A DNA stretch of 64,000 nucleotides from Candidatus Kryptonium thompsonii (GTDB taxonomy: Bacteria > Bacteroidota > Ignavibacteria > Kryptoniales > Kryptoniaceae): positions 189,001-253,000 of the forward strand of contig LDXX01000004.1 in the NCBI GenBank assembly GCA_001442925.1, given 5' to 3'. A program made the translations under genes and the position numbers. Below, piece by piece: positions 2,692 to 13,530 of this stretch (position 1 is the stretch's first letter; each line of letters starts with the position of its first letter). Under the pieces are notes generated by a model. The model was given only the letters and a program-made list of their open reading frames with translations, ran no database searches and was not told where the DNA came from.

Positions 2692-4497
2692 ATGGAAAAC
2701 TCGGAGCTTGATATTTGGAGTAGGTACGAAAGGTTAAAGAGAAGTTTTAATGTTTTGACGCAAATCACCGCAAATATGGTGAGCACGCTTGAACTCGATG
2801 AACTTCTCCAGACTCTATTGGATCGATTGACCGAAGTTACAAATGCTGATGCTGGGATAATAGCAGTGTTTGAGAATGGGGAACTCGTGATAAAAAGCGT
2901 CGCTGGAATTTTTCCAAAAGATTTTGTCAACATAGAATTAACATTTGAGGAAGGCAGTTTTTCGTGGAGGGTTATAAACGAAGGCAATTTAATTTATCAG
3001 GAATCCGCACACTTACATTCCAAGATTTTGGATACAGCATACAAGCTTGGGATTTCAGCAAGTTTAGGCGTTCCACTTAAGAGGTTTAATAAAACCGTTG
3101 GGGTTATAAGCATTCATTGGGTTAAGCCGCATCCTCCGGATGATGAGGAGGTTCGTCTTCTTGAGATCACGGCAGAAAGGGCAGCTATGGCAATTATAAA
3201 TGCAAATCTTTTTAAACAAGTGAAGATACAAGCCGAACTTATAGAACTTTCACCCGACGCTGTTATTGTGAGGGATTTAAATGATGTCATCAAGTTTTGG
3301 AATAAGTCGGCTGAAGAAATTTATGGTTGGAAGAAGGAAGAAGCGATAGGTAAAAAGATCACTGGGTTAATTTATGACCAAAATGAGCTTGAGACTTACT
3401 TTAAAGCAAAGGATTTTACGCTAAAAGAGGGAAAATGGCAGGGAGAGTTGAAGCAAGTGACAAAGGATGGAAAAAAGTTAACGGTTTTGTCAAGATTTAA
3501 AGTTTTATATGATAACTCTGGAAATCCATACCAAATTATCTCCGTAGATAGTGATATAACAGAGATGAAGAAAATTGAAACCCTTTTAAACCGTACTCAA
3601 CGGCTTGAATCAATTGGGCGACTTGCATCAGGAATTGCTCACGATTTAAACAACATTTTACAACCTATCGCAATATTAACCCATGTTTTTAAAAGAAAGC
3701 TTCAAGATGAATCCGACTTAAAATATATCGAAATTATTCAATCATCCATTCAAAGAGCTACCAATATCATAAATCAAATTTTATCTTTCTCAAAAGGTAT
3801 AGCTGGGGAAAAGGGGATAGTCCAAGTAAAACACCTGATAAGAGAGCTTGAGGTAATTTTAAAGGAAACATTTCCAAAAAATATAAAAATTGAGATTGAG
3901 GTGCAGAAAGACTTATGGCCAATAGTGGCTGAACCAAATCAGATGATGCAAGTGCTTCTCAACTTATGTGTTAACGCAAGGGACGCGATGCCAAATGGCG
4001 GGACATTAAAAATAAAGGCGCAAAATTCAATACTTGATAAACACTATATAACCCAGCTTCCAAATTTAAAACCAGGCCCATATGTTATCATATCAGTAGA
4101 AGATACGGGAACCGGAATACCTCCCGAAATAATTGATAAAATTTTTGATCCATTTTTTACTACAAAAGAACTAGAAAAGGGAACTGGATTAGGGCTTGCA
4201 CAAGTGAACAGCATTATAAAAGAGCATAATGGAGTTATAAATGTGTATAGTGAGCCTGGAAAGGGAACTATATTTAGAATTTACCTGCAAGCAGCTGAAG
4301 AGGAATTTAAAGAAAAGGGCGTCGAAAAATTAAAAGAAGAAATACCAATTGGAAACGGGGAACTCATACTTGTTGCAGAGGATGAACCTGCCGTTCTCGA
4401 AATGATAAAATTAGCTTTGGAAGAAAACAACTATAGAACTATAACTGTGAATAACGGTGCGGAGGGAATTGTAAAGTACTCACAAAATAAGAATTAA
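2692..4497 (+). CDS. GAF-PAS hybrid sensor histidine kinase, cut inside its receiver domain
   Basis: The 601-residue product has a GAF domain (about 15-175), a PAS domain (about 180-295), a HisKA dimerisation domain with the H-box GIAHDLNN (phospho-accepting H317), a HATPase domain (about 400-520, with DTGTGIPPEI and GTGLGLAQV) and the first half of a receiver domain (from about 558). No membrane segment is seen, so it should be cytoplasmic. Translation stops at an in-frame TAA at 4495-4497. The same frame then continues with the rest of the receiver (4498-4713). The truncated product keeps the kinase but lacks the receiver's phospho-accepting aspartate. The input signal is unknown. Confidence 0.85.
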   Translation: MENSELDIWSRYERLKRSFNVLTQITANMVSTLELDELLQTLLDRLTEVTNADAGIIAVFENGELVIKSVAGIFPKDFVNIELTFEEGSFSWRVINEGNLIYQESAHLHSKILDTAYKLGISASLGVPLKRFNKTVGVISIHWVKPHPPDDEEVRLLEITAERAAMAIINANLFKQVKIQAELIELSPDAVIVRDLNDVIKFWNKSAEEIYGWKKEEAIGKKITGLIYDQNELETYFKAKDFTLKEGKWQGELKQVTKDGKKLTVLSRFKVLYDNSGNPYQIISVDSDITEMKKIETLLNRTQRLESIGRLASGIAHDLNNILQPIAILTHVFKRKLQDESDLKYIEIIQSSIQRATNIINQILSFSKGIAGEKGIVQVKHLIRELEVILKETFPKNIKIEIEVQKDLWPIVAEPNQMMQVLLNLCVNARDAMPNGGTLKIKAQNSILDKHYITQLPNLKPGPYVIISVEDTGTGIPPEIIDKIFDPFFTTKELEKGTGLGLAQVNSIIKEHNGVINVYSEPGKGTIFRIYLQAAEEEFKEKGVEKLKEEIPIGNGELILVAEDEPAVLEMIKLALEENNYRTITVNNGAEGIVKYSQNKN

Positions 4498-4713
4498 ATT
4501 AAGCTCATCATTACTGATCTTTGGATGCCCATTTTAGATGGAGTAGAAATGATAAAAATCATAAGAAAGATAGATCCGAATGTGAAGATTCTATTGACAA
4601 GTGGTTTAGATAGCCCAATCGAGGTATTGCCCCCCAATATTTCCTTTCACCTCAAAAAACCCTTTGATGCGGTAACCCTGCTCAAAAAAGTTAGCGAATT
4701 GTTAAAAGATTAA
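4498..4713 (+). pseudogene. Detached C-terminal half of the hybrid kinase receiver domain
   Basis: After the TAA the upstream frame resumes with IKLIITDLWMPILDGVEM. This is the phosphorylation-site strand of a receiver domain (Asp codon at 4516-4518), followed by the switch Thr/Ser region and the Lys loop (HLKKPFD). One substitution in the TAA, for example from GAA, would restore a complete receiver. The ATG at 4525 could start a 62-residue peptide, but it would lack the aspartate and the first half of the fold, so it is unlikely to work alone. Either a recent nonsense mutation or a sequencing error. Confidence 0.75.
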
Positions 4714-5066: not shown

Positions 5067-5093
5067 GTTTTAAAACTAAAATTTATTTTGCCT

Positions 5094-6608
5094 ATGGATA
5101 AAGAATCAAAGATTTCCGAAAAAAGCGTCAAGCAAAACCAATTTGAGCTTACCCCCGATAATAATAACGCCTATACCGACGCTGAACTAGAGTCATTAAA
5201 AGCCGCAACAGATGGCAAAGATGTGAAAGCAATATGGAATGAATGTCTTGAAATCATCCGAGACAATGTCAATCCCCTAAGTTTTAAAACATGGTTTGAG
5301 CCAATTGTCCCCCTTAAAATTGAGGGAAAGCAGCTAACGATCCAAGTTCCAAGCCAATTTTTTTACGAATGGCTCGAAGAACACTATTATAGTTTAATTA
5401 AAAAAACGCTTACCAAAGTTCTAGGGGAAGGAGCTAAACTTGTTTACTCCGTTGTCATGGAAAATTCATCCTCGGACGAAACAAAGACAACGATAAATCT
5501 TCCTCCTGCTTCGAAGCCAGCTCCAAAACCGTCTTATCCAATCCAGGTCAAAACCTCTTATGACTTTCAACCTTTTGATAGCAACTTAAACCCGAAGTAC
5601 ACATTTGATAATTTCGTAAAGGGCGACTGTAATCAGTTAGCGACGGCTGCTGCTCTTGCAGTTGCGAATAACCCAGGGGGTACATCCTTTAATCCGCTTG
5701 TGATCTACGGTGGCGTTGGGCTTGGTAAAACTCACTTAATTCAAGCGATTGGAAACTATGTCGTCGCAAATAAGAAAGCAGCAAGAGTTTATTATGTTTC
5801 AAGCGAGAAATTCACAATTGACTTCGTTGAGGCTATTCAAAAAGATAAAGTTAATGATTTTTCAAACTTCTACAGAAGTGTCGATGTTTTAATTGTCGAT
5901 GATATACAATTCTTTGCGGGGAAAGAAAAAACGCAGGATAACTTTTTCCATACATTTAACGCCCTTCATCAAGCAAGAAAACAAATTGTTCTATCTTCCG
6001 ATAGACCACCAAAGGAATTAAAAGGGCTTGATGATAGGTTAATTTCAAGGTTTCAATGGGGTCTGATTGCTGATATCCAACCGCCAGATCTTGAAACAAG
6101 AATCGCAATCCTGAAGAAAAAGGCTGAGGATGCTGGGGTGGAGCTTCCACAGGAGGTCATTGAATATATCGCTGTCCATATAACATCAAACATAAGAGAA
6201 CTTGAGGGTTGTCTTATAAGTTTACTTGCGAAGTCTTCACTTGAAAATAAAAAAATCGATATAGAGCTTGCAAAGGAAGTTGTGAGAACAATAGTTAAGG
6301 ATACATCTGTAAAGGTTTCAATTGAGGAAATTCAAAGAATTGTATGCGAACATTTTGGAATTCCACCAGATATGTTAAAAGCAAAAACGAGAAAGCAGGA
6401 AGTTGTGATAGCAAGACAAATCGCAATGTATCTATGTAAAGAACTTACGGATTCATCTCTTAAAACGATTGGATTACATTTCGGTGGCAGGGACCATAGC
6501 ACAGTAATTCACGCTTGCCAATCCGTTGAAGAAGATATGAGAAAAAGTGAAAAGTTTAGAAACCTTGTTGAATCCCTACGCCGAAAAATTGAGTTCAGCT
6601 CAAAATAA
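5094..6608 (+). CDS. dnaA: Chromosomal replication initiator protein DnaA
   Basis: A protein of about 504 residues that binds DnaA boxes, melts the origin and loads the DnaB helicase. Domain I follows a non-conserved leader of about 45 residues (KAIWNECLEIIRDNVNP onward). A Pro-rich linker comes next. The AAA+ core has Walker A GGVGLGKTH (about 206-214), Walker B LIVDDIQFF and sensor/arginine motifs. The C-terminal domain IV carries the GGRDHSTVIHA DNA-recognition signature. The first ATG at 5094 is used here; an in-frame TTG six bases earlier is also possible. The gene is flanked on both sides by DnaA-box clusters. Confidence 0.98.
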   Translation: MDKESKISEKSVKQNQFELTPDNNNAYTDAELESLKAATDGKDVKAIWNECLEIIRDNVNPLSFKTWFEPIVPLKIEGKQLTIQVPSQFFYEWLEEHYYSLIKKTLTKVLGEGAKLVYSVVMENSSSDETKTTINLPPASKPAPKPSYPIQVKTSYDFQPFDSNLNPKYTFDNFVKGDCNQLATAAALAVANNPGGTSFNPLVIYGGVGLGKTHLIQAIGNYVVANKKAARVYYVSSEKFTIDFVEAIQKDKVNDFSNFYRSVDVLIVDDIQFFAGKEKTQDNFFHTFNALHQARKQIVLSSDRPPKELKGLDDRLISRFQWGLIADIQPPDLETRIAILKKKAEDAGVELPQEVIEYIAVHITSNIRELEGCLISLLAKSSLENKKIDIELAKEVVRTIVKDTSVKVSIEEIQRIVCEHFGIPPDMLKAKTRKQEVVIARQIAMYLCKELTDSSLKTIGLHFGGRDHSTVIHACQSVEEDMRKSEKFRNLVESLRRKIEFSSK

Positions 6609-6614
6609 TAACAG

Positions 6615-6861
6615 TGTTGATAAGTATGTGGATAAGTTGTTAATTTGTGTGGGTTGTATGTTAACAAATCAAAAAGTTATCAACATTCACATTGTGGATA
6701 ACTTCAAAATGTGGATAAAATTAAAGTTATCAACACCAGATTAACACTCGTTATTGTTTAAGTTTTTCACACACCCCATAAAAAAGAATTGATGGACAAG
6801 GCTTTTTTAACCAATTAAAGCATTGTGTTTTTTTCTTAAAAGAGTTATCCACATATCCACA
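6615..6861. other. oriC: Origin of replication, right DnaA-box cluster
   Basis: The 296-base gap after dnaA holds a second cluster. Perfect TGTGGATAA occurs at 6627-6635, 6693-6701 and 6710-6718, and TTATCCACA at 6845-6853, followed at once by a one-mismatch copy (6853-6861). TGTTGATAA-type boxes are at 6615-6623, 6677-6685 and 6727-6735. An AT-rich stretch without boxes (about 6780-6844) is a possible unwinding region. With the left cluster this makes a bipartite origin with dnaA between the halves, an arrangement known from Bacillus and Helicobacter. No gene is supported in this gap. Confidence 0.85.
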
Positions 6862-6904
6862 GCCCTTATTAATAATCTTAACAAACTTTTTAAAGAATAA
6901 CTAC

Positions 6905-7231
6905 TTATTTAACGGATTCCATTGCTTGCACAATTAGCGGGAAATATCTATCAAGTGCACATTCAACTGAATTTCTTAACTCGCAAACTCCGTCTGGTGT
7001 TTCTCTGCACTCTTTGCAAATATTTTCTCTTAAAGCAATTATGTAATCGTTCATATTATCACTTTTAATGCGAAGAACAATATTTACAATCTTAGGAAAA
7101 TATTCTTTCACCCCGCACATTGACATTTCTGAAATTCTGCAAATTCCATCTCCATACGGATCACTGTCTATACAAACCTTACATACAGTGTTTTGAACCG
7201 CATGCCAGTATTTTTCAAGTTCTGGTGTCAT
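6905..7231 (-). CDS. Tandem four-cysteine repeat protein, function unknown
   Basis: A 108-residue protein made of two similar halves. The first has C17-x2-C20-x10-C31-x7-C39 followed by KEYFPKIV. The second has C72-x2-C75-x7-C83-x7-C91 followed by DRYFPLIV. The repeated four-Cys pattern suggests two metal or iron-sulfur sites, or a redox protein. No signal peptide or membrane helix is visible, so it is probably cytoplasmic. The start has CGGAGA upstream. It stands alone, convergent with dnaA and divergent from folB. I cannot name its family. Confidence 0.8.
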   Translation of the reverse strand: MTPELEKYWHAVQNTVCKVCIDSDPYGDGICRISEMSMCGVKEYFPKIVNIVLRIKSDNMNDYIIALRENICKECRETPDGVCELRNSVECALDRYFPLIVQAMESVK

Positions 7232-7325
7232 ATCAAATCTCCGATTTTGTTTTACAAGTATATTTTGAAAACTTTTTAGGAAAAAGTCAAGATAAGTTCA
7301 TGTGCGAGATTGTTTAGGTTTGAAA

Positions 7326-7352
7326 TTGCAAATTTTATTTGATATATTTTTG
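7326..7352 (+). promoter_or_regulatory. Possible Bacteroidota-type promoter for folB
   Basis: A TTG at 7326-7328 is followed by TATTTTTG at 7345-7352, which fits the TAnnTTTG -7 element of Bacteroidota promoters at roughly the expected spacing. It lies about 40 bases before the folB start and no other obvious promoter is present. In AT-rich DNA such matches can arise by chance, so this is tentative. Confidence 0.3.
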
Positions 7353-7391
7353 ACAAAAATTTTCCTGATGCGAAAACGAAAATAAAAAGCA

Positions 7392-7763
7392 ATGAGCAAA
7401 ACTGGAATTATAAGAATCAAAAACGCAATCTTTTACGGTTACCACGGGGTTCATACATCTGAACAAAATTCAGGTGGAAGATTTGAGGTAGACGTTGATC
7501 TCTACTGTGATATTTCAGATGCTATGCAGACCGACTCTCTTAAAAGTACGGTTGACTATGAACAGGTTTATAATTTTTTAAAGGATTTGATAACCGAAAA
7601 AAGATTTTACCTAATTGAATCTCTTGCTTCCAGAATCGCCGAAGGTTTAATTAAAAAATTTGACAGGGTTCAAAAGGTTGTGGTTAAGGTTCGCAAGCCA
7701 TCGCCACCTGTTGGTGGGGTTGTTGATTGTGTTGAGGTTGAGGTCGAAATGAAAAGAGATTGA
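7392..7763 (+). CDS. folB: Dihydroneopterin aldolase
   Basis: A 123-residue enzyme of the folate pathway that cleaves 7,8-dihydroneopterin to 6-hydroxymethyl-dihydropterin and glycolaldehyde. The N-terminal FYGYHGVH segment and the central TVDYEQVYN, ESLASRIAE and VRKPSPPV motifs are family signatures. The conserved Glu (in HTSEQN), Tyr and Lys positions for substrate binding are present. Length is typical. The next gene, ten bases downstream, begins with the following enzyme of the pathway (FolK), so product and substrate are handled in one operon. Confidence 0.95.
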   Translation: MSKTGIIRIKNAIFYGYHGVHTSEQNSGGRFEVDVDLYCDISDAMQTDSLKSTVDYEQVYNFLKDLITEKRFYLIESLASRIAEGLIKKFDRVQKVVVKVRKPSPPVGGVVDCVEVEVEMKRD

Positions 7764-7773
7764 ACTGGTATCA

Positions 7774-8937
7774 ATGTCATTTGTGTATCTTAGTATAGGT
7801 TCAAATATAGGCGATAGAATTGGGTATATAAAGAAAGCCCTTGTTGCTTTATCAAAACTTCCAAAGACAAAGATAACCAAAATTTCTTCACTTTATGAAA
7901 CTGAGCCATATGGGAGAAAGGAACAGCCGTGGTTTGTAAACATTGTGGTTGAGATGTTTACAGAGTTAAGCCCTGTTGAACTTTTTAAAAAGTGCAAGTC
8001 AATAGAAGCAAAACTTGGGCGTCAGGTCCGTGAGAGATGGGCTGAGCGTGAAATTGACATTGATATTCTTTTATATGATGACCTTGTGATTTCAAGCGAA
8101 GGGTTCAAAATTCCACATCCAGATATGCACAACCGTCGTTTTGTCCTGATACCGCTTAGCGAGATTGCCCCAAGGGTTATTCATCCGCTTTTTAAAAAAA
8201 GCATTTCCGAGCTTTTAATTGAATGCAAGGACACAGCAAAGGTAATCCACATCCCGGAGAAAATAGATCTTAAAAAAACAATAGAGCCGGAGGTGAAAGA
8301 AATAAAATATATAGCAATTGAAGGGGTAATCGGAGCGGGTAAAACTTCACTCGCAAAAATGTTAGGTGAACGCCTTAACGCAAAAGTTGTCCTTGAACAA
8401 TACTACGAGAATCCATTTCTTGAAAAATTTTATCAAAATAGAGAAAGATACGCTTTTCAAACGCAGATATTTTTTCTTTTGAGCAGATACCGACAGCAGT
8501 TGGAACTTTTGCAGAGGGATTTATTTCATGAGTATTTGATAACAGATTATATCTTTGACAAAGATAAAATCTTTGCTCATATTAATTTGAAAGGTGATGA
8601 ACTTAAACTCTACGAGATGCTCGTTAGTTTGCTTGAGAAAAATGTACCGACTCCGGATTTGGTTATTTATCTTCAATCGAGCGTCGAAAGGTTGATGTTC
8701 AACATTAGAAAGCGTGGGCGACCATACGAGAAAAACATAAGCGAGGACTACATTCGTGAACTATTCGAAGCGTATAACGAATTTTTCTTTAATCAGTACA
8801 AAAAATCCCCTGTCCTTGTGATAAATGCAACCGAAATTGATTTTGTCAACAACAAGGAAGATTTTGAGGATTTGATAAATAAAATTTTAAGCCCAAGAAA
8901 ATCCTACTTCGAATATTACAATCCCGGAAAAAGGTGA
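7774..8937 (+). CDS. folK: FolK pyrophosphokinase fused to a deoxynucleoside kinase
   Basis: A 387-residue two-domain protein. Residues 1-165 are 6-hydroxymethyl-7,8-dihydropterin pyrophosphokinase, with LSIGSNIGDR at the start and EREIDIDILLYDD containing the magnesium-binding D95 and D97. Residues 176-387 form a deoxynucleoside kinase of the dCK/dGK type: P-loop EGVIGAGKT (about 183-191), an LEQYYENPFLEKFY substrate-binding segment, and an IRKRGRPYE lid motif. The protein would join folate synthesis to deoxynucleotide salvage, both feeding DNA precursors. I recall similar fusions in the Bacteroidota/Chlorobi group. The frame is open throughout, so this is a real fusion. Confidence 0.93.
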   Translation: MSFVYLSIGSNIGDRIGYIKKALVALSKLPKTKITKISSLYETEPYGRKEQPWFVNIVVEMFTELSPVELFKKCKSIEAKLGRQVRERWAEREIDIDILLYDDLVISSEGFKIPHPDMHNRRFVLIPLSEIAPRVIHPLFKKSISELLIECKDTAKVIHIPEKIDLKKTIEPEVKEIKYIAIEGVIGAGKTSLAKMLGERLNAKVVLEQYYENPFLEKFYQNRERYAFQTQIFFLLSRYRQQLELLQRDLFHEYLITDYIFDKDKIFAHINLKGDELKLYEMLVSLLEKNVPTPDLVIYLQSSVERLMFNIRKRGRPYEKNISEDYIRELFEAYNEFFFNQYKKSPVLVINATEIDFVNNKEDFEDLINKILSPRKSYFEYYNPGKR

Positions 8938-9104: not shown

Positions 9105-10267
9105 GAGGAATTGGGAAATTTCTTTCCAAAATCGACCCGTTCAGAAATAAAAAGCTTAAAAACTTTTTTATTAAGCTCTTAAGCCAATTTTTTAAAAATC
9201 AAGTTTTTATAAGGGTTGATAAATCCGAGAGAATAGATGTTGATTTCGGTGATGTAAAGAAAATTTTAATTGTAAGACAGCATAATCAACTCGGGGATAT
9301 GCTTTGTGCTGTTCCTTTATTTAGAGCACTCCGTCAAAGGTTCCCAAGTGCAAAGATTACGCTTATCGCAAGTCCTGTGAATTATGAAGTTGTGAAAGAT
9401 AATCCTTTTGTTGATGAAATTTTAAACTTTGATAAAGTTAAATTTCTAAAATCACCATCGAACTTTTTTAAATTTGTAAGGAGTGTAAAGGTAGGCTTTG
9501 ATATTGCCATTGTTCCTGTGACAGTTTCAATCTCAACAACAAGCAATTTGCTCGCTTATATTTCAAAAGCAAGAATTCGCATAGGTCCAGCTTCGCTTAA
9601 TGGAAAAGAAAATCCAACCGCATTTCTTTTCAATTATCAAGTTGATCTTGACTGGCGAGATGAAGAAGAAAAACATCAAACGAAGCGAAACCTTGACATC
9701 GTAAAACCATTTGGAATTGATGCGGAAGATTTAAGTTATGTTATACCGTATTTTGATGAAGATAGGGAATTTGCGAAGAATTTTTTAAGCAAAGCTAAAG
9801 ATTTTAAATTTTTAATTGGCTATCATCCGGGCGCTGGGAAAGTAAAAAACAGGTGGGATGCGGGTAATTTTGCCGAGTTAGCTTTAAAACTTGCGGATGA
9901 ATTTAATGCTTTGACATTGATAACAGCAGGGCCAATGGATGATGAGCCTGTTGAAAAGATGAGGAAACAAATCGATGGGAAGATAGATTACCTTATTTTG
10001 AAAAATGAAAAGATTAGTAGAATAGTTGCAGTGATTGACTCGGTTGATCTTTTTATAACGAATGACACTGGGATAATGCATGTCGCTGGGGCTACGAAAA
10101 CACCAGTGATATCTCTTTTTGGTCCAACTAATCCGTATCAATGGTCACCCCTTAACGAAAATAAATTTTTCATTTGGTCGAAAACTGGAGATATAAACGA
10201 TATAAAAGTTGATGAGGTTTATAAACTTGCGGTTGAAATTTTAAGTAGAAAAGGGGCACGGGATTAA
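9101..10267 (+). CDS. Glycosyltransferase family 9 (heptosyltransferase-like)
   Basis: A 388-residue GT-B fold enzyme of the lipopolysaccharide core heptosyltransferase family. The N-terminal Rossmann half contains ILIVRQHNQLGDMLCAVPLF. The C-terminal half contains the nucleotide-sugar motif FITNDTGIMHVAGA with LFGPTNPYQWSP. It should transfer a heptose or other sugar to the lipid A core at the inner face of the cytoplasmic membrane. The basic N-terminal segment could be a membrane-surface anchor. It is coupled to the upstream small membrane protein. Its stop overlaps that of the convergent reverse gyrase gene. Sugar specificity cannot be read from sequence. Confidence 0.9.
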   Translation: MRGIGKFLSKIDPFRNKKLKNFFIKLLSQFFKNQVFIRVDKSERIDVDFGDVKKILIVRQHNQLGDMLCAVPLFRALRQRFPSAKITLIASPVNYEVVKDNPFVDEILNFDKVKFLKSPSNFFKFVRSVKVGFDIAIVPVTVSISTTSNLLAYISKARIRIGPASLNGKENPTAFLFNYQVDLDWRDEEEKHQTKRNLDIVKPFGIDAEDLSYVIPYFDEDREFAKNFLSKAKDFKFLIGYHPGAGKVKNRWDAGNFAELALKLADEFNALTLITAGPMDDEPVEKMRKQIDGKIDYLILKNEKISRIVAVIDSVDLFITNDTGIMHVAGATKTPVISLFGPTNPYQWSPLNENKFFIWSKTGDINDIKVDEVYKLAVEILSRKGARD

Positions 10268-13200
10268 AATTTTTTCCTCTTTATGAAACTTTCAATTTCC
10301 TTTCTGAATTCAATAACTTTGTCTATAAAGTTTTCTTCTCCGCTCTCAATTTTATCAACAGCTTCAAGAACAATCCTTGTTCTTTCCTCGTTTATAAGTT
10401 GTTCATAGTTTGATTTTAAAAATTTAAAAACATCGAACCCAAGCCGTGTTCCGGATAATCTGCCGTTAAAGCTTTGTACATAGCCTCTGTCTTTAAGTTT
10501 TTGAACAATTGGGGCGTAGGTGCTCGGTCGCCCGATCCTTTTTTCACGCATCAATTGAATTAAGTTCGCCTCCGTAAAAAGTGGTTTTTCGCTGACCAAG
10601 CGAACCTGAATTTGAGATATGTTATACTCTCCGGAATCAATCGATCCAACTGTTTTGATAGGGGAGATCAAGTTGAAACCATTTTCAACGATACTTCCGT
10701 TAAATTGGAAATCTTGAATCAGGTCTCCGAGCTGTGCTTTAAATTTGAAAACTTTTAACTTTGCTGGGATCATTTGGCTTGAGATGAAGCGTTTAAAAAT
10801 CAGCTCATAAAGCTTGAGATGTTTTTTGCTTAATTTTATTTGGAGAAGTAAAAGCTTTGTTTCGATGTCCGTTTCAAGTTCAAAAGAGTTTAAAGGTCTT
10901 GTTGGTCTTATACATTCATGAGCTCCTTCTTCGGTTCCCCAAGTTCGTGCTTTGAAATAAGAACCAAGTTTCTCTTTCTCAAGGTATTGTCGTGCTATGT
11001 TTATTCCGAAACTGCTAACACGAGTTGAGTCAGTTCTATGATATGTGATCAAACCGCTCTCGAAAAGTTCCTGTGCTATTTCCATAACATCGCTTGCTGG
11101 TAGGTTGAGCGTGTGAATTCCATCTTGAAGAAGTGAATCGGTTGTGTAGGGTGGAAGAGGATTTTGCTCTATTATTTCTTCGGTTAAATCAAAGATTTTA
11201 ACTTTTTGAGTTGATTTTATTTTTTCAATTTCTTCCGGTTTGGCTGTGAAGTTTAAGCGTAGATTATTTTCAAGGAGAACATTTACTTGGGCTATCTTCT
11301 TTTTGCTTTCTATCGTTCTGTTGCAAACCCATCCAAGCACGGGCGTTTGAACTCTTCCAGCGCTTAAATCTTCACGGTTGAATTTTTTCTGAACTATTTT
11401 TGACAGTTCAAGTCCTATCCATGCATCTTCAACTTTTCTTAAGATTTGAGCCTTCAAGAGATTGAGATCAAATTGATCGGGATTTTTGAGTCCTTCAATG
11501 ATAGCCCGCTTTGTAATTTCATGCCACTTTAATCGTTTTATGTTCTGATTGAATGGGTAAAGCAAGCATTTCAAATCCCAGGCTATTTTCTCACCTTCGG
11601 CGTCTGGGTCGGTTGCGATCAGGACTTCATCAACATTTTCGGCAAGTTTTTGAAGAGCAGAAGCGATTTCAGGTTTTACAATTTCAAATTTTACTTCAAG
11701 TTTTGAATCAACAAGCCTTGCACCAAATCCCGGTTGTTTTATTGCAAGGTCTGTTATATGTCCGCGCGATGCGGTTACAAGCAAAAGCATACCGGGTGCC
11801 ATAACTTCAAAAACTTGTAAGGCTTCAGTTCTACTTTTCAGCGGTTTCCCGAAGAAATAAGCTATTGTTCTTGATTTGGTTGGTGATTCAACTATTAAAA
11901 GCTGTGAATTAAATTCTATATCAACTCCAATTTTCAATTCTCTTGTAGCGTTTATCTCTTCCATTACTTTTTCAATATCAAGGTCTTTAAAGTTTACGAA
12001 ATTAACATCTAACGGTTCGAGTTGTTCTTTCATAAACTCAAAAGCGGATGGATTATCGATCATCAAAATTGATAATCCTTTTGTCAATCCTCCAATGGTT
12101 AATCTACTTGCTCTACCCGATGCTTGAATGTAAACAAATGGATCTGGGATTATAAGTGAATTTCCAGAGGCTCCTATTTTAGTAGCTATTTCTTGCCTTG
12201 ACGAAATTTGGTTGGAAAATTCAAGCGACCTATTCATAACATCATAAGCGAACTTAACGAAATCTGATGTCCCGCTTGATTCTGGATCAAAATCTTTTGA
12301 TCTTATCTTATTAAGATTTGCCTGACTTAATTCGACTATTTTTGAGAGGTCTTCAATTATATCAATAGCTTTTTGTCTTTCCTCACCTTCGAGATATTTT
12401 GCTATTCGACTTATTACCATTATCATTTTTCTTGGTGAGAATGTTTCACGATCAACCGTGATTTCCATTCGTGGAATTTCAAAGAATATTGTATATCTTA
12501 GCGCTGTCGGTAGGTCGATTCCTCGGACAAGTGATGAACGCCTTGATGATGTTCCGACGAGGACATCTATTTCATTATTTTCAAAGGCTTGGAATATCTT
12601 TTTTGAAGCTTTGATATATGCACTTGCTTTTATTCCGTTTTGATTTAAAAATTCCGCGATTTGTTCTGCCTTTTCGCTGCCCCTGACATATACAATTGCA
12701 CCGCTTCCAAGTCTTTTTAGTAATTTTACCAGTTCTTCTTTAGGATCTCCTTCGGGGTAAAAATATGAATCGATTATGTTTCTTGTGAAAGAGTAGGTTT
12801 GACCAATATCAAATCCAAAGATTTCTTTTAAAATTTTAACTCGTAGAGTTCTCTTGGCAGTTTGGGTGGCTCCAGATACAATAATTTGCCCCTTGTTTGT
12901 TTTTATTTTTGAGCGTAGTTCGTTTAAATCTTCTGATTCAACCTTTTTCGCGATGATTTTTTTAGCATATTCAATTTGTTCATTAGTTATTCCAAGAATT
13001 TTTAGGACCGTGTCAATTGCTTGGGAACGGCGGAGGAAGCCATCGACATCGTCAATAAATACGGCTTCGGTTTTTAAAGATTCGAAAATTTTTTTATTTC
13101 TAACTATCGAAGCAGATGTTGTTACGATAATATCTGCGTTGTCAACTTCGCTTTGTTTTGGTTTTGGTGCGAGAGAATGAATTTGGGCGATCTTTTTGTG

Positions 13201-13530
13201 CGGGGCAACGCTTTGAATTTTTTTAGAGACTTGAAATGCAAGTGTTGAATTGGGGAGAAGTATAAGGGATTTTTTCAGAAGCGATAGCGCTATTGTTGTG
13301 GTTGTTTTGCCACTTCCCGTTGGAGCAAGCATCGCGAAACTTTCTCCCTTTAGAAATCTTCTCGCCCATAATCTTTGAGCACCCCAAGGTTTGAAATTGA
13401 ACGGTTCAAAAATTTTATTTATATCTTCGGTTGTGATCGTGTTAAGTTTAATTTCACCACTTAAAAGCTCATCAAGCGACGCCTTTTGTGAACCGTGAAA
13501 GTTTAGGTAAATTATCTCAAGATCCTGCAT
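10264..13530 (-). CDS. rgy: Reverse gyrase lacking both zinc fingers
   Basis: A 1088-residue fusion of a helicase-like domain and a type IA topoisomerase that introduces positive supercoils; the hallmark enzyme of hyperthermophiles and some thermophiles. Helicase half (about 1-535): Walker A APTGSGKTT (69-77) and the reverse-gyrase IDDVD box (159-163). Topoisomerase half (about 540-1088): TOPRIM glutamate in IVESPTKS (E547), DPDAEGE (641-647) and active-site Y830 in LITYHRTDS. Only three cysteines occur (C654, C736, C873), so the usual N-terminal zinc finger and the one before DPDxEGE are both absent. It stands alone, pointing against its neighbours, which suggests separate acquisition. Confidence 0.96.
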   Translation of the reverse strand: MQDLEIIYLNFHGSQKASLDELLSGEIKLNTITTEDINKIFEPFNFKPWGAQRLWARRFLKGESFAMLAPTGSGKTTTTIALSLLKKSLILLPNSTLAFQVSKKIQSVAPHKKIAQIHSLAPKPKQSEVDNADIIVTTSASIVRNKKIFESLKTEAVFIDDVDGFLRRSQAIDTVLKILGITNEQIEYAKKIIAKKVESEDLNELRSKIKTNKGQIIVSGATQTAKRTLRVKILKEIFGFDIGQTYSFTRNIIDSYFYPEGDPKEELVKLLKRLGSGAIVYVRGSEKAEQIAEFLNQNGIKASAYIKASKKIFQAFENNEIDVLVGTSSRRSSLVRGIDLPTALRYTIFFEIPRMEITVDRETFSPRKMIMVISRIAKYLEGEERQKAIDIIEDLSKIVELSQANLNKIRSKDFDPESSGTSDFVKFAYDVMNRSLEFSNQISSRQEIATKIGASGNSLIIPDPFVYIQASGRASRLTIGGLTKGLSILMIDNPSAFEFMKEQLEPLDVNFVNFKDLDIEKVMEEINATRELKIGVDIEFNSQLLIVESPTKSRTIAYFFGKPLKSRTEALQVFEVMAPGMLLLVTASRGHITDLAIKQPGFGARLVDSKLEVKFEIVKPEIASALQKLAENVDEVLIATDPDAEGEKIAWDLKCLLYPFNQNIKRLKWHEITKRAIIEGLKNPDQFDLNLLKAQILRKVEDAWIGLELSKIVQKKFNREDLSAGRVQTPVLGWVCNRTIESKKKIAQVNVLLENNLRLNFTAKPEEIEKIKSTQKVKIFDLTEEIIEQNPLPPYTTDSLLQDGIHTLNLPASDVMEIAQELFESGLITYHRTDSTRVSSFGINIARQYLEKEKLGSYFKARTWGTEEGAHECIRPTRPLNSFELETDIETKLLLLQIKLSKKHLKLYELIFKRFISSQMIPAKLKVFKFKAQLGDLIQDFQFNGSIVENGFNLISPIKTVGSIDSGEYNISQIQVRLVSEKPLFTEANLIQLMREKRIGRPSTYAPIVQKLKDRGYVQSFNGRLSGTRLGFDVFKFLKSNYEQLINEERTRIVLEAVDKIESGEENFIDKVIEFRKEIESFIKRKKF

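Follow-up and report, generated by a model that had tools for sequence, protein, structure and literature searches.

What is the small cysteine-rich protein encoded beside the putative replication origin of Candidatus Kryptonium thompsonii, and does its position next to dnaA say anything about its role? We studied the gene in its surroundings of 64,000 nucleotides (the whole stretch of DNA analysed, here called the window), in the genus and in more distant relatives. A first-pass annotation of the same DNA had described two halves with a shared four-cysteine pattern, and had proposed two metal or Fe-S sites in a family that it could not name.

A conserved gene with two four-cysteine repeats

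The open reading frame encodes 108 residues between an ATG start, with GGAG just upstream, and a TAA stop; its coordinates and those of its surroundings are given in Table 1. Each of the seven genus genomes searched contains one copy, and the six relatives carry the protein at 83-92% identity. Two named relatives, a Candidatus Kryptonia bacterium (87% identity) and a Candidatus Thermokryptus (86%), place the genome with Candidatus Kryptonia. Within the genus dN/dS is 0.03-0.07 in the 10 out of 21 pairs where it is estimable, synonymous change among the seven genomes being so near saturation that 11 pairs give no estimate. The low ratio indicates a real protein under strong selection, and we conclude that the reading frame is a genuine gene. 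Judged by eye, no signal peptide is evident in the family, whose members are proteins of about 100 amino acids.

Table 1. Positions in the window of the gene, its two repeats and its neighbours.
Feature	Positions	Strand	Basis
dnaA, facing the four-cysteine gene	5088..6608	+	recognised from sequence; present in all six genus loci examined
DnaA-box cluster, four exact TTATCCACA, between dnaA and the four-cysteine gene	6627..6853	.	
Gene of the duplicated four-cysteine protein	6905..7231	-	sequence and family alignments A1 and A2
Repeat 2, about residues 60-108 (Cys72, Cys75, Cys83, Cys91)	6908..7054	-	sequence, hhalign of the halves, cysteine table
Repeat 1, about residues 5-54 (Cys17, Cys20, Cys31, Cys39)	7070..7219	-	sequence, hhalign of the halves, cysteine table
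folB-like gene, divergent from the four-cysteine gene	7392..7763	+	recognised from sequence

The gene was correctly placed beside the right DnaA-box cluster, as its 3' end lies 51 bases from the last box. The box TTATCCACA occurs eight times between 4834 and 6853, and the pattern TTWTCCACA nine times in the window against 2.34 expected, a number reached in 0 of 100 shuffles; GC skew is not decisive for an origin at the putative oriC. In all six genus loci read (f1; the short contig of the seventh genome was left out) dnaA faces the four-cysteine gene. However, among the 80 other loci and the window, dnaA is a neighbour only within the genus, and elsewhere redox genes or ubiE, PAP2 and ksgA genes take its place. 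For this reason we reject an origin-linked role, and the meaning in replication that the location had suggested is unsupported.

The comparison of cysteines uses two alignments, A1 with 26 rows and A2 with 77. From A2, rows more than 85% identical were removed, and it also omits the first tandem copy of locus L118, where the gene caller preferred a longer overlapping reading frame. In the window protein site 1 reads C-x2-C-x10-C-x7-C and site 2 C-x2-C-x7-C-x7-C. Across A2, 73 out of 76 intact copies of site 1 have x8 as their middle gap and three have x10, the window protein among them; for site 2 (n = 72) the gap is x8 in 53, x7 in 17 and x6 in two. The residue following the second cysteine is mostly I or V in site 1 and K or R in site 2. 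Both halves share the family consensus Y-x2-A-(I/L)-R-x2-(V/I)-C before the cysteines and (E/D)-x-Y-(F/L)-P-x-I-V after them. With profiles built from the 71 rows that have eight cysteines, hhalign aligns half with half over 50 columns (probability 99.3%, E 4e-20). The halves are a true internal duplication, which bears out the pattern first seen in the single sequence.

Retention of the cysteines in homologues, on which the first-pass annotation had staked its proposal, is high: all eight are invariant in A1 (26/26) and retained in 71 of the 77 rows of A2. Three A2 rows have an intact site 1 and no cysteine left in site 2, two others retain a complete site 1 with a single site 2 cysteine, and one lacks two of the site 1 cysteines although its site 2 is complete. 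The second half is still alignable in all five rows short of three or four site 2 cysteines, and therefore the site was probably lost from a pre-existing repeat. This joint loss supports two separable four-cysteine units, each a putative metal site. The earlier claim of two metal or Fe-S sites thus holds as far as separate sites are concerned, and the identity of the metal stays putative.

Known families and predicted fold

No Pfam or NCBIfam match above cut-off was seen for the family, where the multi-row scans gave mostly E-values and not bits. Four members compared with PHROGs gave nothing below E 0.02, and literature searches listed no title on this family. The protein belongs to an undescribed family, absent from the Pfam and NCBIfam models searched, and the annotation was right to leave it unnamed.

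The commonest weak Pfam match in the 77-row scan is LRV_FeS (PF05484; 17 out of 77 members, best E 0.011), the [4Fe-4S] module of leucine-rich-variant proteins, which has a four-cysteine module in common with our family. In LRV_FeS proteins the module is followed by LRV repeats, whereas here two modules stand without LRV repeats and the window protein ends after repeat 2. The repeat 1 cysteines of one member (L075) and the repeat 2 cysteines of another (L144) fall on LRV_FeS columns 11, 14, 23 and 31, an agreement of profile positions in one repeat each of two members that leaves aside the model's own residues. The match appears in only 2 of 10 members in another scan, is not listed for the window protein, and, where bits are given, scores 10.5 and 10.2 in two members, far under the cut-off of 27. 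In the phylum, LRV_FeS matches 7 of 296 genomes at E<=0.01, none above cut-off. We reject it as a true relative on the scores given, which lie below the cut-off; its search of the organism's own genome gave 0 matches, but the control genomes were silent too.

Bacterial 2[4Fe-4S] ferredoxins (Fer4) are likewise small proteins with two four-cysteine sites, and the four-cysteine family is also found with pyruvate- and 2-oxoacid:ferredoxin oxidoreductases (PFOR/KOR). The two ferredoxin sites come from an internal duplication, follow the motif C-x2-C-x2-C-x3-C-P and form clusters that share cysteines between the repeats. The family differs in its spacing, C-x2-C-x6..10-C-x7-C, which does not fit that motif, and in a predicted structure that is mostly helical. 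That the site 2 cysteines are lost together also suggests one repeat per site, in contrast to ferredoxin clusters that use both. The window protein has no Fer4 Pfam match up to E 10, and none was found among the 24 families of the 26-row scan (one member matched Fer2_3 at E 0.1), nor among the 25 of 56 families listed for the 77-row scan.

Two further weak matches concern the window protein itself. SapB_2 (PF03489, saposin-like) scores 14.9 bits against a cut-off of 21 and covers only 13 residues; it is matched by 8 of 26 rows of A1, slightly more often than LRV_FeS (7), and by 5 of 77 rows of A2. DUF6171 (PF19668) scores 14.2 bits, below its cut-off of 27, with matches at E<=1 in 6 of the 26 rows of A1 and 3 of the 77 of A2.

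A first AlphaFold2 model from 26 sequences had a pLDDT of 72 and gave no fold match. The second, from 77 sequences, reaches pLDDT 85.5 and pTM 0.81, with helices at 3-17, 40-43, 45-55, 60-75, 84-87 and 92-105. In this model the C-x2-C pairs lie at or shortly past the point where each of the two long first helices ends, Cys39 and Cys91 directly precede helices, and the loop of site 1 is least certain (block means 61-65). Each unit of 50 residues is thus predicted as a helix ending about C-x2-C, a loop with the third cysteine and a helix just after the fourth. The second model gave no clear fold match (Foldseek best E 1.5); the best VIA match, the GIPC2 GH2 domain 5v6h (Z 5.7, rmsd 3.4, 70 aligned), is within the helical background. 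By sequence, the PDB gave no convincing relative of the family. The designed repeat 5cwf (E 2.6e-4 and 4.2e-4) was rejected as a match of helix composition, in which no single stretch passes.

Distribution and gene neighbours

At E<=0.01 the A1 profile matches 116 out of 391 genomes of the class (about 30%) and none of the other 275; in the phylum it matches 26 of 296, all 26 in the same class. Chance probably accounts for the weakest few class matches (E about 1e-3, with internal stops). Two to four copies occur in several genomes, and L118, L119 and L120 carry tandem pairs. A tblastn search of plasmids with one relative gave no match.

We examined 81 loci, 80 chosen from the matches and the window, which do not include every copy in the 116 genomes. 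Singleton reading frames shorter than 110 amino acids were removed before counting; some neighbours were named from Pfam representatives and others from sequence, and some cytochrome c labels are CXXCH motifs. A same-strand neighbour within 150 bases is present in 41 loci. The other 40 include all six genus loci, the loci with opposite-strand ubiE, PAP2 and ksgA genes, and two gene-calling misses (L127, L130) where the caller chose an opposite-strand frame over hypA and which the counts keep as neighbourless.

A same-strand run with PFOR/KOR, CcmF, Rieske, cytochrome b or c, multihaem cytochrome or hemerythrin genes is found in 31 out of 81 loci. At three of them (L067, L123, L124) a NifJ-type PFOR is preceded by a two-site copy and directly followed by a one-site copy, and these following copies are three of the five site 2-deficient members; Pfam finds POR_N and EKR domains in three neighbours. 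Kor-type genes precede the four-cysteine gene in L118, L119, L120 and L134, and the L080 homologues have POR domains by Pfam. In L119 (7106-7378), L120 (8080-8337) and L134 (7489-7878) small proteins that all belong to a single sequence cluster are encoded between the korC-like and the two-site gene, and the L119 protein has only a sub-threshold Pfam match to DUF4320. Elsewhere the gene is flanked by Rieske and cytochrome b genes (L121, L135), comes directly behind cytochrome b (L122), or follows multihaem cytochromes (L071, L140, L141, L154, L156) or hemerythrin (L129, L131, L147). The closest associations are those with NifJ, with the ccmF gene that overlaps it in the f2 loci, and with the Rieske and cytochrome b pair. 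Beyond the 31 loci, L127 and L130 have hypAB-hox-like operons.

Outside these runs, families f10, f12 and f21 have a typical site among opposite-strand ubiE-, PAP2-, mgtE- and ksgA-like genes (PAP2 by Pfam). Five loci carry acetyl-CoA hydrolase/transferase without a labelled redox gene, four of them with alanine dehydrogenase/PNT; two (L136, L068) have unlabelled ferredoxin-like or bd-oxidase-like genes by sequence. A further five loci have neither redox nor acetyl-CoA hydrolase/transferase genes.

To control for regional effects, immediate same-strand neighbours were compared with distant genes, taken four or more places away in the 41 loci that have such a neighbour. Redox genes make up 28/63 of the former and 52/245 of the latter (odds ratio 3.0, Fisher p 3e-4, indicative only because the loci and genomes are related). 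The redox labels come from clusters first seen near the four-cysteine gene plus any CXXCH, by the same rule in both sets; over all 81 loci, 64 of 566 distant genes carry them. When these 63 neighbours were compared by Pfam with 63 distant genes drawn at random, CcmF was found in seven neighbours and cytochrome b in three, against none among the 25 of 94 families listed for the distant genes. POR_N (4 versus 3) and cytochrome C7 (4 versus 4) are as frequent in distant genes, therefore the redox association is partly regional, with the immediate operon adding to it.

Possible functions of the protein

Our preferred reading, to which we give close to even chances, is a two-site cytoplasmic Fe-S carrier or docking subunit for redox enzymes. 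We favour it because the two-site protein recurs by unlike redox enzymes and the one-site form occurs with PFOR. Here we infer the Fe-S metal, the cluster type, electron transfer and the partners from cysteine pattern and gene order. Each unit would bind one iron-sulfur cluster, and four cysteines would suit [4Fe-4S]. The protein would serve low-potential oxidoreductases, namely 2-oxoacid:ferredoxin oxidoreductases and hox-like modules, as well as quinone/cytochrome modules. Because the Kryptonia gene is solitary next to dnaA, its product would act in trans there. The weak LRV_FeS matches and the lack of a CPxCG knuckle are in line with a carrier. Against it count the different partners in different clades, LRV_FeS scores far under the cut-off, the 40 loci lacking a close same-strand neighbour, the two sets of five loci whose runs have no labelled redox gene, and the 275 class genomes in which the profile has no match.

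A more far-reaching version is doubtful. It proposes a new, mainly helical two-cluster carrier, built from a duplicated non-ferredoxin four-cysteine unit, that would connect 2-oxoacid:ferredoxin oxidoreductases as well as hox-like modules with Rieske-cytochrome b and multihaem cytochrome systems in Kryptonia and relatives, with a derived one-cluster form for PFOR. Ca. Kryptonia are predicted in the cited report to be heterotrophs with aerobic and iron respiration (PMC4737851). If the proposal is true, a non-ferredoxin carrier would supply a missing link from ferredoxin-type oxidoreductases to respiratory chains, and the one-site relatives beside PFOR are a natural experiment on the role of each site. 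The redox role in general gives a testable function to a family for which the scans found no Pfam or NCBIfam model above cut-off and which occurs in about 30% of the sampled class genomes.

Four-cysteine sites with C-x2-C often bind zinc, and with two structural zinc sites the protein could be a small, helical adaptor or regulator that keeps redox complexes assembled or governs their operons and transfers no electrons. Three of the five loci without redox or acetyl-CoA hydrolase/transferase genes agree with this, having DksA-like and response-regulator genes beside the four-cysteine gene (L126, L128, L146), as does a weak zf-AD match in 4 of 77 members. However, zinc-ribbon and DksA-type zinc proteins have knuckles of the CPxCG type, which the family does not show: in the 77 rows, proline does not rank among the six residues most often found after the first cysteine. 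The bias toward redox operons and LRV_FeS as the commonest weak match also speak against zinc, and we consider it unlikely.

Less probable still is a maturation or repair factor that would deliver Fe-S, haem or nickel to the enzymes of adjacent genes. The ccmF gene overlaps the four-cysteine gene in 7 out of 7 f2 loci read. In L127 (3965-8303) the four-cysteine gene heads a same-strand run of hypA, hypB, NuoE-, NuoF- and HoxU-like genes, and in L130 (6264-8207) a run of hypA, hypB and a NuoE-like gene as far as listed; hypA starts 6 bases past the four-cysteine gene in these runs, where HypB (a CobW/HypB domain) and NuoF were assigned by Pfam and the others recognised from sequence. These gene orders would fit a maturase, but the NuoE-like genes in the hypAB runs suit a carrier equally, and the cofactors of the partners (TPP/Fe-S, haem, di-iron, Ni) are too different to suit one dedicated maturase well.

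We hold similarly low expectations for a redox or O2/NO sensor, in which the cysteine sites would be oxidised or lose their cluster and then act on partners or regulators. Such a role is suggested by L117, where a Usp domain (Pfam) is fused in frame with the two-site protein (6629-7615) in a gene that follows a CRP/FNR-type gene and precedes a protein with 13 CXXCH motifs. In L147 the four-cysteine gene is flanked by the hemerythrin gene and an Rrf2-type gene, the latter recognised from sequence, and the DksA-like and response-regulator loci suit a sensor as well as zinc. Against this, the family itself has no DNA-binding or enzymatic domain, and the examples are single. A spurious reading frame or replication-origin feature, for which only the nearby DnaA boxes speak, is hardly credible for a gene that is conserved across many families far from dnaA and has such low dN/dS in the 10 of 21 unsaturated pairs.

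Three other genes of the window deserve mention. At 2692-4713 (+) the reading frame of a sensor kinase stops at 4497 and the same frame restarts with an ATG at 4525, apparently inside the receiver domain of the kinase, which may be an in-frame stop, a split gene or a sequence error. The gene at 7774-8937 (+) appears from its sequence to fuse an HPPK (folK) domain with a deoxynucleoside-kinase-like domain. A reverse gyrase-like protein of 1088 amino acids, recognised from sequence, is encoded at 10264-13530 (-), and every Ca. Kryptonia genome is reported to have reverse gyrase (PMC4737851).
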